Shown: one piece after another, positions 23,300-27,240 of the stretch
Layout: each line of letters begins with the position of its first letter
How positions within the stretch are numbered: position 1 is the stretch's first letter
Origin: Chitiniphilus shinanonensis DSM 23277
GTDB lineage: Bacteria; Pseudomonadota; Gammaproteobacteria; Burkholderiales; Chitinibacteraceae
Direction of reading: 5' to 3'
Assembly (NCBI RefSeq): GCF_000374805.1
Contig: NZ_KB895334.1
Span: forward strand, 194,685-258,684
DNA: 64,000 bases
Notes under the pieces: model-generated
What the model was told of the DNA's origin: nothing
Database searches by the model: none
What the model saw: only the letters and a program-made list of their open reading frames with translations
Program-made: the position numbers and the translations under genes

Positions 23300-23963
23300 G
23301 CGGAAACGGCCTTCATCCTCCGCCCCCGCGTGTGAAGGCCGATTCGCCCTCGGGCCGCGTCGCCGACGCTGCAACGCGACGACGCCCGGATCCTGCCCCG
23401 CCGACTTGGCCGATCACCCCGCGCTCGACCGCTTCTTCGCCCGCCAGCAGGCGCTGAGCCGGTTGCTGCGCGCGCCGGCATTCGGGCGGCGCCGACGCTG
23501 AAGGCGCTGGCCGGCACCGGGCGCGGTACCTCGCTCAGCACCTGCCTGTTGCAGAGCCCGATGGTCAACCTGACGGTGGGCGTGGGTGGCGACACCACGC
23601 TGGCGGGCGGCGGCCTGCTGTGCCTGCCGACCAGCGTCAGCGCGGTGTGGGATGTCCGGACGACTGCATCATCCCGGTGTCGGGTCGCGACGAGATCGTG
23701 TTCGACGCCCCGCGCACCGGCGTGCTGCAACCCGCGGGCAGTTTTTTGTGCCGGACCACGTCGCGGTGGCCCCGGCCGCTTTTCCGGTCGTCGCTTTCGG
23801 ATTCGTCCCATTCGCCGGGCACCGCGGCGCCAGGCATGTCCTTGGCGTCATTCCCGAGGGTGGGCCCCCCGGTTGGCCCACCGGCCGGGTGGGGAACGGC
23901 TGCATGTGCGCGCGCATAGTGATTTGTACCCGCCGGTACACCGGCATTGCTCCGGGCATCGCC
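23300..23963. other. 664-bp region with no supported gene
   Basis: Several short frames run through it, some with protein-like composition (for example LADHPALDRFFARQQALSRL at 23406-23465 and MVNLTVGVGGDTTLAGGG at 23561-23614), but they are in different frames and no family was recognised. It may hold a decayed gene. The right end should carry the promoter of the sensor gene at 23964. Confidence 0.35.
23334..23353 (+). repeat. Copy 2 of dispersed GATTCGCCCTA motif
   Basis: GAAGGCCGATTCGCCCTCGG lies 35 bp after the oxidoreductase stop. The preceding bases (CCCCGCGTGTGAAGG) also match the copy at 45740, so the similarity there extends to about 30 bp. Confidence 0.5.
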
Positions 23964-26111
23964 ATGCGTCGCTTCGTCCAGCACCTGTTCAGCAACCGCG
24001 CCGCCGTGCTTGTCGCCGTGCTGTGCGTCGGCCTGCTGTGCACCGGGCTGATGCACCTGTGGATGTATCGCATGCAGACCCGGCTGGTGCAGCAGCGGCT
24101 CGACCAGCAGGCCACGCTGGCCGCGGTGCGTATCGAGGCGCGCATGGACCGGCTGAGCGAGATGGCGCGCGGCCTGCGCGGCGCCTTCCTGGTCAACCCC
24201 GGCCTGGATCGCCGCACCTTCATCCAGCTGCTGCGCCAGCAGCGACTGTCCCCCGAACTGGGCGACTACCTGATGGCGGCGTACATCCGCGAGGTGCCCG
24301 CTGCCCAGGTGGATGCCTTCCTGGCCCGGCAGCAGCAGCCGGCGCTGGGCAGCGCCGGTCAGGTCACCCTGCGTAATTTCGGCAGCCGCGGCAGCTACTA
24401 CCTGATCGACTATCTCTACCCCGACAACAATGTCACGCACGCCTACATGGGTTTCGACATCGGTGGCCTGCCCACTCGCCTGAAGGCGCTCGAATCCATC
24501 CGCGACCGCAACCAGCCGGTGCTCAGCCCGCCGATCCCTTTGCTGGCGCTGAGAAAGCATCCGCCGGTCTTCGCTCTGCGCTATCCGCTGTACCGACCCG
24601 ATCTGCCGCTCGATACCGCGGCGCAACGTCGCGCCGCGTTCCATGGCTTCCTGTCGATCACCGTGTTACTGAGCGACGTGGAGCGCTGGGTCAAGCTGGC
24701 GCTGCCTCCCGGGATGCATTACTCGTTGTGGCAAAGCTGGCAGGACCCGGCCTGGGGGCCCACCGACCACGCCCGGCGCATGCTGGAGGGCGGGCCGGCG
24801 GCGGTGTCCCGTGGGCTGAACAGCGAGGTGCTGATCAACCTGCAAGGCGCGCAATGGCGGCTGGTGCTGGAGGAAACCCCGGCCTCCCGGTCGGATCTGT
24901 TCTGGCTGTGGCCGGCGGGATTCAGCCTGAGCCTGTTGCTGGCGATGGCCTTTGGCTGGCAGGGCATGCCGCAGCGCAAGCAGGAACCCGCGATGTTGCG
25001 CGGCGTCGATCGCATCCTGACGTTGGTCGAGCACCTGCCGGCCATGGTGGTGCTGCGCGATGCGGCCAACGTGGTGGTGTACGGCAACCGGGCGGCGCAG
25101 TGCTGGCTGGGCGAGGAGGAACCGCTGCTGGGGCGCAGCGAGCAGATCTGGAGCGCCGCCGAGCTGTCGTCGCACGAGGAGCACAACGCGCTGCACCTGG
25201 TGCTGCCGGACCGCAACGGCGAGGAACGGCACCTGGCGCTGACCATCCTGCCGCTGTCCGGCTATCCGGGGCACCGCGCCACCATCGTGCGCGACGTGAC
25301 CGAGGAGCAGCGGCGCGAGGTCGAACTGACCATGCGGCGGCAGCGCATGTCCGAGTTGCTGGAGATCGTGTGCGACTGGTACTGGGAGCTGGATACCGAG
25401 CACCGCATCACCTATGTGTCGAGCAGTCAGTTCGCCCGGGTGGGCTTCAACCTCAGCGTGCTGCTGGGCAAGCGCAGCTGGGAGATCGCCGACGGCGCGC
25501 TGACCCAGCAGGAATGGGAGGCCCACCGGCAGCGGCTGGACCGGCGCCAGCCCTACCGCGACTTCATCCTGCGGGTGCCGATGGAGGGCAGGTTCTACGT
25601 GGTCAGCCTGAGCGGCCGGCCGCACTACGACACCGCCGGGCGGTTCCAGGGCTATCGCGGCGTGGCGCGCGACATCACCGAGGCGGTCACCCTGCAGGAA
25701 CACACCCAGGCGCAGGCGGTGCGCCACGAGCGCATCCTGGAAGCGCTCGGCGAAGGGCTGATCGCCCTCGACGCGGCCGGGCGGGTGCAGTACCTCAACT
25801 CGGCGGCGATGGCGCTGACCGGCTATTCCGCCGAAGAGGCGACGGGCCTGCCGGTCGAACGCGTGCTGGTGATGGTGGACGACGTGCACAGCGTGCCGCT
25901 GCCCAACCTGTGCGGGCCGCTGCTGGTCGGGCAGGCGCAGACGGTGCGACCGCGTCGTTGCGTGCTGCTCAACAAGTACAGCCTGCGCATCGCCGTGGAG
26001 GAAAGCGCGGTGGCGATGCGCGAGGCCAACGGCCGGTTGGCGGGGGTGGTGATCGCCTTCCGCGACGAAGGCGTGCCATTGAGGCCGCCGGAGCCCGAAG
26101 CGGAGCGGTGA
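23964..26111 (+). CDS. CHASE-PAS-PAS-PAS membrane sensor without output domain
   Basis: A 715-residue protein. Membrane segment 1 is at about residues 10-32. An extracytoplasmic CHASE domain follows at about 40-230 (ARGLRGAFLVNPGLDRRTF, then YLMAAYIREVPAAQVDAF), then membrane segment 2 at about 311-332. Three PAS domains follow at about 348-450, 456-575 and 589-705, the second with a DWYWELDTEHRITYVS core. The protein ends 25 residues after PAS 3. No histidine kinase, GGDEF, EAL, chemotaxis or HTH domain follows in any frame before cysK. Such sensors normally end in an output domain, so this one is either truncated or acts by protein contact. The frame opens far upstream; ATG 23964 directly precedes segment 1. 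Confidence 0.88.
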   Translation: MRRFVQHLFSNRAAVLVAVLCVGLLCTGLMHLWMYRMQTRLVQQRLDQQATLAAVRIEARMDRLSEMARGLRGAFLVNPGLDRRTFIQLLRQQRLSPELGDYLMAAYIREVPAAQVDAFLARQQQPALGSAGQVTLRNFGSRGSYYLIDYLYPDNNVTHAYMGFDIGGLPTRLKALESIRDRNQPVLSPPIPLLALRKHPPVFALRYPLYRPDLPLDTAAQRRAAFHGFLSITVLLSDVERWVKLALPPGMHYSLWQSWQDPAWGPTDHARRMLEGGPAAVSRGLNSEVLINLQGAQWRLVLEETPASRSDLFWLWPAGFSLSLLLAMAFGWQGMPQRKQEPAMLRGVDRILTLVEHLPAMVVLRDAANVVVYGNRAAQCWLGEEEPLLGRSEQIWSAAELSSHEEHNALHLVLPDRNGEERHLALTILPLSGYPGHRATIVRDVTEEQRREVELTMRRQRMSELLEIVCDWYWELDTEHRITYVSSSQFARVGFNLSVLLGKRSWEIADGALTQQEWEAHRQRLDRRQPYRDFILRVPMEGRFYVVSLSGRPHYDTAGRFQGYRGVARDITEAVTLQEHTQAQAVRHERILEALGEGLIALDAAGRVQYLNSAAMALTGYSAEEATGLPVERVLVMVDDVHSVPLPNLCGPLLVGQAQTVRPRRCVLLNKYSLRIAVEESAVAMREANGRLAGVVIAFRDEGVPLRPPEPEAER

Positions 26112-26112
26112 G

Positions 26113-26140
26113 AACGGCCGGCCAGGGGAGGGCGGCCGTT
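26113..26140. terminator. Hairpin after sensor gene
   Basis: AACGGCCG and CGGCCGTT are perfect arms around 12 bases, starting two bases after the stop codon. No T tract. Confidence 0.5.
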
Positions 26141-26307
26141 GCGGGGCGGGCCGACCCCGGCGCGCGATGGGTGCGCCGGCAGGTCGGCCGCCCGGGGCGG
26201 TGAGCGCCACCGACCCGGTGCAGCGAACCCGGCGGACAACGCAAGCCACACGGCCGGCAAGGCTCGGCGCTCCGCGCGATCCCGCCAGGAGGGCCTGTCG
26301 GTGGCGC

Positions 26308-27240
26308 TTACTCCACCAGGCCTTCGAACAGCTTGGTCGACAGATAGCGTTCGCCGAACGACGGAATGATCACCGCAATCAGCTTGCCGGCGTTTTCCGG
26401 GCGGCGCGCCACCTGTAACGCGGCCCAGGTGGCGGCACCCGCGGAGATCCCGCACAGGATGCCTTCCCGCGTCGCCATCGCGCGGGCCACGGCGAAGGCG
26501 TCGTCGTTGGCCACGCGGATCACTTCGTCGTAGGCGGTGGTGTTGAGCACGGCCGGCACGAAGCCCGCGCCGATGCCCTGGATCGGGTGCGGTCCCTTGG
26601 CGCCGCCGGACAGTACCGGGCTGGCGTCCGGTTCCACCGCGATCGCCTGGAACGACGGCTTGCGCGCCTTGATCACCTCGGCCACGCCGGTGATGGTGCC
26701 GCCGGTGCCCACGCCGGAGATCAGGATGTCGATCTGGCCGTCGGTATCGTTCCACAGCTCCTCGGCGGTGGTGCGGCGGTGGATTTCCGGGTTGGCGGGG
26801 TTCTCGAACTGCTGCGGCATGAAGTAATTGGGGTGCTCGTCGCACAGCGCCTTGGCACGGCCGATGGCGCCGCCCATGCCTTCCGGCCCCGGCGTCAGCA
26901 CCAGCTCGGCGCCGTAGCCGCGCAGCAGCGCGCGCCGTTCGCGCGACATGGTCTCGGGCATGGTCAGCACCAGTTTGTAGCCGCGCGCCGCGCACACCAT
27001 CGCCAGGCCGATGCCGGTATTGCCCGAGGTCGGTTCGACGATCACGGTATCCGGGCCGATCAGGCCGGCGGCCTCGGCGGCGTCGATCATGCTGACGGCG
27101 ATGCGGTCCTTCACCGAATGCGAGGGATTCATGTACTCCAGCTTGGCCACCACCGTGGCGACGCATCCTTCGGTCAAACGGTTGAGCTTGACGAGGGGGG
27201 TGTTGCCGATCAGCTGGGTGACATCGTTGGCGATACGCAT
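26308..27240 (-). CDS. cysK: Cysteine synthase A (O-acetylserine sulfhydrylase)
   Basis: A 310-residue PLP enzyme that makes cysteine from O-acetylserine and sulfide. The PLP lysine is K44 in [14 protein letters not shown]. The phosphate-binding and substrate loops are [13 protein letters not shown] and [15 protein letters not shown]. The C-terminal [11 protein letters not shown] segment is also family-typical. Length is normal. A GGAGTCC-type ribosome site precedes ATG 27240. It is flanked by a sensor gene (convergent) and a MITE (27408). Confidence 0.95.

Follow-up and report, generated by a model that had tools for sequence, protein, structure and literature searches.

The gene at 23964–26111 (+ strand) of a stretch of Chitiniphilus shinanonensis DSM 23277 DNA encodes a membrane sensor of the form TM-CHASE-TM-PAS-PAS-PAS that has no output domain, and relatives of the same form occur in every genome of six genera of its family. 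We conclude that this protein is a conserved output-less receptor and that it probably forms part of the c-di-GMP network and acts in trans. Coordinates given without a locus are those of the window, by which we mean the whole stretch of 64,000 nucleotides that was analysed.

Results

The sensor ends just after its third PAS domain

The gene has an ATG start and a TGA stop and its product is 715 aa long. From its N-terminus the protein, all of whose parts are encoded on the + strand, comprises a first transmembrane (TM) segment (residues ~14–32, 24003–24059; hydropathy), a CHASE domain (residues 81–239, 24204–24680; Pfam, E 2.2e-23), a second transmembrane segment (residues ~312–330, 24897–24953; hydropathy), and the domains PAS1 (residues ~350–447, 25011–25304; from the alignment, with bounds set by eye), PAS2 (residues 476–575, 25389–25688; Pfam), and PAS3 (residues 589–701, 25728–26066; Pfam PAS, E 2.1e-18), with PAS_4 matching three stretches (E 5.6e-21). 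A search of Pfam to E = 1 returned seven families, all of them CHASE or PAS families, and nothing else. Because the two hydrophobic segments flank the CHASE domain, CHASE is predicted to be periplasmic and the PAS domains cytoplasmic. These assignments agree with a preliminary description of this DNA, made from the letters alone, in which the product was read as a CHASE-PAS-PAS-PAS membrane sensor that stops shortly after its third PAS domain; the stop codon indeed lies 14 residues past PAS3, and this short tail (26067–26108, + strand) begins at the place where GGDEF-EAL homologues continue into GGDEF.

In comparisons with known structures, the CHASE part of a profile of the sensor family matches PDB chain 6k62_A, which we take to be PcrK of Xanthomonas, and the AHK4 chain 3t4j_A. 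PAS3 of the sensor resembles the PAS domain that opens the PA0861 chain (PDB 5xgb; E 1.5e-22), presumably RbdA, a PAS-GGDEF-EAL protein. An AlphaFold model of the sensor, built from only two sequences, has a mean pLDDT of 32 and was set aside. Scanning of positions 23300–26400 for promoters and terminators gave one promoter-like site (on the minus strand) and one terminator-like site, both inside the sensor gene, and no site at either end of it.

The preliminary description also held that no output domain follows before cysK, and several observations bear this out. The sensor stop is 196 bp before the end of the convergent cysK gene (26308–27240, minus strand), a gap (26112–26307) with no room for an output domain, and the window's own genome has 34 GGDEF matches, all of them outside the window (contig C1:194685-258684). 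When three GGDEF-EAL halves were compared by tblastn with the neighbourhoods of 25 orthologues (E up to 10, best 30 rows), no GGDEF-EAL remnant directly behind the sensor was found among the best 30 rows; rows with E < 1e-10 lie at least 2.2 kb past the sensor stop (in G034, G027, G019, and G036), and the other rows listed have E values of at least 0.59. The preliminary description had named an overlooked frame with output motifs downstream as a ground for refutation; no such frame or remnant behind the stop was found in the window, in the genome's list of GGDEF matches, or among the best 30 tblastn rows, and we reject this explanation. Pfam likewise detected no GGDEF and/or EAL domain, no HisKA or HATPase_c, and no MCP signalling domain in the window sensor or in any of the 24 aligned members of the sensor family. 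Nor does the last PAS lead into a helical C-terminal output domain of the type present in RpBphP1, the tail being only 14 residues long in the window and shorter, in fact nearly absent, in the genus we label g7.

The output-less form is kept in six genera

A first survey of 61 genomes, 37 of the family and 24 others of the order, gave a full-length match in 25, all of them within the family. A profile search of 43 family genomes (E up to 1e-60) found full-length relatives in 31, the window's copy included. The sensor is present in every genome of 6 of the 11 genera (g1, 3 genomes; g5, 6; g6, 3; g7, 9; g9, 3; g11, 7), and the profile search found it in no genome of the other five (g2, 2 genomes; g3, 4; g4, 1; g8, 3; g10, 2), so that 12 of the 43 are without the gene. 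The orthologue in G001, a genome of the same genus, is 71% identical to the window protein, and that of Chitiniphilus eburneus, the only locus found among the named genomes, is 70% identical; among the 24 aligned members identity falls as low as 26%. We read the stop positions in all 31 copies: 30 are intact, with the stop close behind PAS3. The 24 intact copies whose length was read span 713–745 aa with the chosen starts, a few of which are uncertain (G006, G016, and G023). All 24 aligned intact members match CHASE and PAS families in Pfam and none matches a catalytic family; four further families gave weak matches, each in 1 to 4 of the 24. The preliminary description had proposed that relatives be compared for architecture and length, and had reasoned that orthologues all carrying an output domain would mark the gene as a truncation. 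They do not carry one: all genomes of six genera, 31 of the 43 in the family, have the output-less form, which refutes a truncation private to the window's genome.

The one remaining copy, in G008 (L056 8379–10145, minus strand), has an in-frame TAA before PAS3 and then a separate open reading frame over PAS3; this copy is either decaying or split, or else reflects a sequencing error.

Nine pairs of sensor genes gave dN of 0.017–0.318 and dS of 0.307–2.165, with several dS values near saturation, and dN/dS of ~0.06–0.27, which shows that the sensor is under purifying selection in these pairs. The intact copies, together with these ratios, indicate that the sensor copies are kept as genes. Between the window and G001 the best conserved part is PAS2 (dN 0.074, dS 0.736) and PAS3 is less constrained (dN 0.206, dS 0.542, dN/dS ~0.38); in a tree of PAS3 only, g1 and g7 have long branches.

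The closest homologues outside the family carry GGDEF and EAL

Homologues outside the family were sought in a sample of 300 genomes of the order (threshold E 1e-40, with three candidates scored in each genome), in five genomes of one outside family, f32, and in a sample of 369 genomes of the class (threshold E 1e-65, with two candidates scored in each). In the class-wide search of 369 genomes the window's own genome alone matched. End-to-end homologues were found only in G153, G111, and G067, three of the five f32 genomes. These proteins resemble the sensor in having CHASE and PAS domains in the same order, and they align with positions 12–731, 115–731, and 101–731, respectively, of the 736-position sensor profile; unlike the sensor they run on into GGDEF and EAL, with PAS3 leading straight into GGDEF, and are 1159, 1133, and 1133 aa long. 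The CHASE-PAS sensory part of the window sensor is thus homologous end to end with that of GGDEF-EAL enzymes. In a tree built from 37 rows over 696 columns, the outgroup of which was ten CHASE rows picked from loci of the order search, the 24 aligned sensors form one clade (support 98/99) and group with the three GGDEF-EAL homologues at 100/100, apart from the outgroup; two outgroup rows in this tree are long-branched, and the letter composition of seven rows is unusual. The ten outgroup proteins have open frames of 853–1617 aa. Because its closest outside homologues carry GGDEF-EAL, the sensor looks by descent like the sensor half of a cyclase/phosphodiesterase, and the simplest reading, which we favour, is a single loss of GGDEF-EAL in this family with the sensory half kept.

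PAS3 of the f32 homologues is ~37–40% identical to that of the sensors and likewise to that of the family's own PAS-GGDEF-EAL proteins, and the PAS3 domains of these latter two groups are 31% identical to one another. When the two groups were made into separate profiles, from both of which the f32 homologues were excluded, the sensor profile gave 113–122 bits for the three f32 homologues and 83 on average for the PAS-GGDEF-EAL proteins, and the profile of the PAS-GGDEF-EAL proteins gave 101–111 bits for the f32 homologues and 75 for the sensors. This identity pattern fits slowly evolving enzymes and faster sensors. The tree of PAS3 only, made from a short alignment, is compatible both with loss in this family and with fusion in f32 (supports 21/79 and 33/96).

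Genes for c-di-GMP enzymes near the sensor and elsewhere

Neighbourhoods were compared for 25 orthologues and six more copies, with cysK, cca, and ilvA named from sequence. No neighbour gene is common to all orthologues in this comparison; convergent cysK is present in 16 and cca in 17 of the 25 neighbourhoods, and both also occur at L124 and L125. A gene for a REC-DUF3369-HD-GYP protein lies within ~9.3 kb of the sensor in 23 of the 31. In g5 (6/6) and g11 (7/7) this gene and ilvA are upstream of the sensor on the same strand, with the HD-GYP gene at most ~2.1 kb away in all 13 (its domains were scanned in one of these, and the others were assigned by similarity). In two of the three g9 genomes, G019 and G027, the HD-GYP gene is directly upstream (93–116 bp), and in the third, G010, it is on another contig. 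A different HD-GYP paralogue, assigned by similarity and 36–41% identical to the first, lies 0.4–9.3 kb downstream of the sensor and convergent with it in eight of the nine g7 genomes; in the ninth, G695, whose contig ends ~9.1 kb behind the sensor, none was found at E up to 1e-40. Against a tie between the two, the first HD-GYP gene is elsewhere in g1 and g6, where the nearest is 12 kb from the sensor (in G007), and is also present in the sensor-less genomes G003, G005, G011, G013, and G020. These 23 linkages probably reflect two evolutionary events rather than 23, so the linkage suggests, rather than shows, a functional tie; it hints at REC-DUF3369-HD-GYP phosphodiesterases as candidate partners. 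Just upstream of the HD-GYP gene in all six g5 genomes is a gene for a PAS histidine kinase (one of the six was scanned).

At L051 and L053 (in G019 and G027), genes for an HD-GYP regulator, the sensor, a substrate-binding protein, a GGDEF protein, and a uvrA-like protein (names by eye) stand in a row on one strand. The GGDEF gene is here the second gene downstream of the sensor, and the membrane and PAS parts of its product were read by eye. The ilvA-linked regulator of the window's genome (L107 3207–4376, minus strand, contig C11; 389 aa if the longest start is used) is followed directly by ilvA and consists of REC-DUF3369 only, which likewise speaks against a tie with the sensor; five g7 genomes also match the REC-DUF3369-HD-GYP regulator over REC-DUF3369 only (open frames of 347–381 aa), and G001 and G002 match it over its full length. 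These REC-DUF3369-only regulators of the window's genome and g7 are a further loss of c-di-GMP output. The only other CHASE match in the window's genome is a 528-aa CHASE-GGDEF protein (L109 893–2479, minus strand). Positions 23495–23787 (+ strand) hold a 3′ remnant, broken by a frameshift, of a gene whose copy upstream of the G001 sensor is intact; identity to that copy is 84% over 56 residues and, after the change of frame, 48% over 44. The longest start gives the intact G001 gene a product of 612 aa, which by eye has Pro/Thr-rich repeats and begins like a lipoprotein.

The GGDEF-EAL half of the G111 protein matches 41 of the 43 family genomes (E up to 1e-80). Its ten closest matches (E < 1e-150), in g2, g3, g4, and g6, have another N-terminus (read by eye in L110, L111, and L115), so this GGDEF-EAL protein is no obligatory partner of the sensor; a weaker match in G012 falls within a 418-aa open frame that contains an in-frame stop. 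We considered and rejected a split of the gene into a sensor and a free output, since we saw no sensor-less GGDEF-EAL partner shared by the sensor genomes. The PAS-GGDEF-EAL protein with the other N-terminus (L110–L117 and L123; 813–948 aa from the first ATG in the nine read) was matched at E < 1e-150 in each of the ten genomes that make up g2, g3, g4, and g6. Only g6 has both this protein and the sensor, a near-complementary distribution by genus among just 11 genera.

Discussion

The explanation we prefer, and hold to be somewhat better than evenly likely, is that the sensor-only protein comes from a CHASE-PAS-PAS-PAS-GGDEF-EAL enzyme whose output was lost once, and that it acts in trans, most likely on c-di-GMP enzymes; it is from the comparisons above that we infer the direction of change, the action in trans, and the kind of partner. 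GGDEF and EAL would have been lost once in the ancestor of the family's copies, with the sensory half retained. The sensor would sit in the inner membrane, where CHASE may read a periplasmic ligand and the PAS domains probably a cytoplasmic cue. With the PAS3-GGDEF link gone PAS3 cannot drive a domain in cis, so the signal would have to exit by contact with another protein. The state of the sensor could be relayed by binding of this separate protein via the TM helices and PAS surfaces, and action through PAS-PAS contacts, as put forward in the preliminary description, is plausible. The most likely partner or partners would be a membrane cyclase or a REC-DUF3369-HD-GYP phosphodiesterase, the activity of which would be raised or lowered. 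We offer more tentatively the idea that in this whole lineage a receptor enzyme of c-di-GMP metabolism has become a free receptor subunit that steers other enzymes, foremost REC-DUF3369-HD-GYP phosphodiesterases.

The preliminary description had offered two readings, truncation of a diguanylate cyclase or kinase and a sensor that genuinely works with a partner, and there is something in each. By descent the protein does resemble the sensory part of a c-di-GMP enzyme, but not a private truncation, as six genera keep the output-less form; that conserved form speaks for a genuine partner sensor, but one that also looks derived from a GGDEF-EAL enzyme. A partner outside c-di-GMP metabolism, such as a histidine kinase or a transcription factor, would fit the clade, the domain content, and the distribution equally well, and could be sought in the PAS histidine kinase gene near the sensor in the six g5 genomes; there is precedent in the phytochrome RpBphP1, which acts on the repressor RpPpsR2 according to the available part of PMC6899989. 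We nevertheless regard such a partner as rather doubtful, given that the nearest homologues are c-di-GMP enzymes, that PAS3 is of a type found in such enzymes, and that the recurrent linkages include HD-GYP genes. It is less probable again that the output-less form is ancestral and that the f32 proteins gained GGDEF-EAL by fusion. The PAS3 tree is compatible with such a fusion, and PAS3 of the f32 proteins is equally close to that of the family's PAS-GGDEF-EAL proteins and to that of the sensors; however, PAS3 of the sensors is of the kind found before GGDEF-EAL, and the frames of the ten CHASE outgroup proteins are by length enough for an output domain. We think it very unlikely that the gene is a non-functional remnant, a truncated cyclase/phosphodiesterase gene on its way out. 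The ancestor probably had GGDEF-EAL, an in-frame stop interrupts one copy in 31 (that of G008), and PAS3 is drifting faster in two genera, yet 30 of the 31 are intact despite identities down to 26% among those aligned, dN/dS is low in all nine pairs, and in the window the gene just upstream has decayed whereas the sensor gene has not.

Output-less sensor proteins are easily dismissed as truncations. With intact relatives in six genera and homologues that still bear the enzyme, the sensor described here makes a clean case in which to ask how a one-component receptor could be cut from its enzyme yet kept. The case also bears on the way in which many c-di-GMP enzymes share sensor input, the window's genome having 34 GGDEF matches, and its candidate partners can be listed.

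The architecture of the sensor is a variant of known CHASE-PAS sensors, and no description of this protein was found in the literature titles and abstract openings searched. CHASE histidine kinases such as AHK4 and the protein of PDB 6k62 share the CHASE domain with it and, unlike it, carry a kinase output. H-NOX proteins are separate sensor proteins that control cyclases and differ from the window sensor in being haem sensors of another fold with known partners (as outlined in the available part of the review PMC8846402). RpBphP1, a type 3 bacteriophytochrome, resembles the sensor in that it is without a kinase output, has a PAS domain on its C-terminal side, and works by binding another protein; unlike the sensor it is a photosensor without CHASE and has a C-terminal two-helix (HOS) domain (PMC6899989, available part). 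The closest precedent in print is IsmP (PA2072) of P. aeruginosa, for which the available part of PMC10904736 reports that residues 1–413, CHASE4-PAS without GGDEF-EAL, bind the cyclase ImcA in a two-hybrid assay and inhibit it in vitro, that the interaction is lost upon a PAS defect or alterations of the TM helix, that binding of iron by CHASE4 lifts the inhibition, and that the complex was modelled with PAS-GGDEF and TM contacts. IsmP has a periplasmic CHASE-type domain, a TM region, and PAS, as does the sensor, and differs from it, as described there, in having CHASE4 rather than CHASE, a single PAS, and, in the natural protein, both an EAL domain and a degenerate GGDEF. By analogy, the window sensor has the layout that an IsmP-like regulator acting in trans would need, and, if the more tentative idea above is true, the free receptor subunit would be a naturally occurring parallel to the artificial CHASE4-PAS fragment of IsmP.
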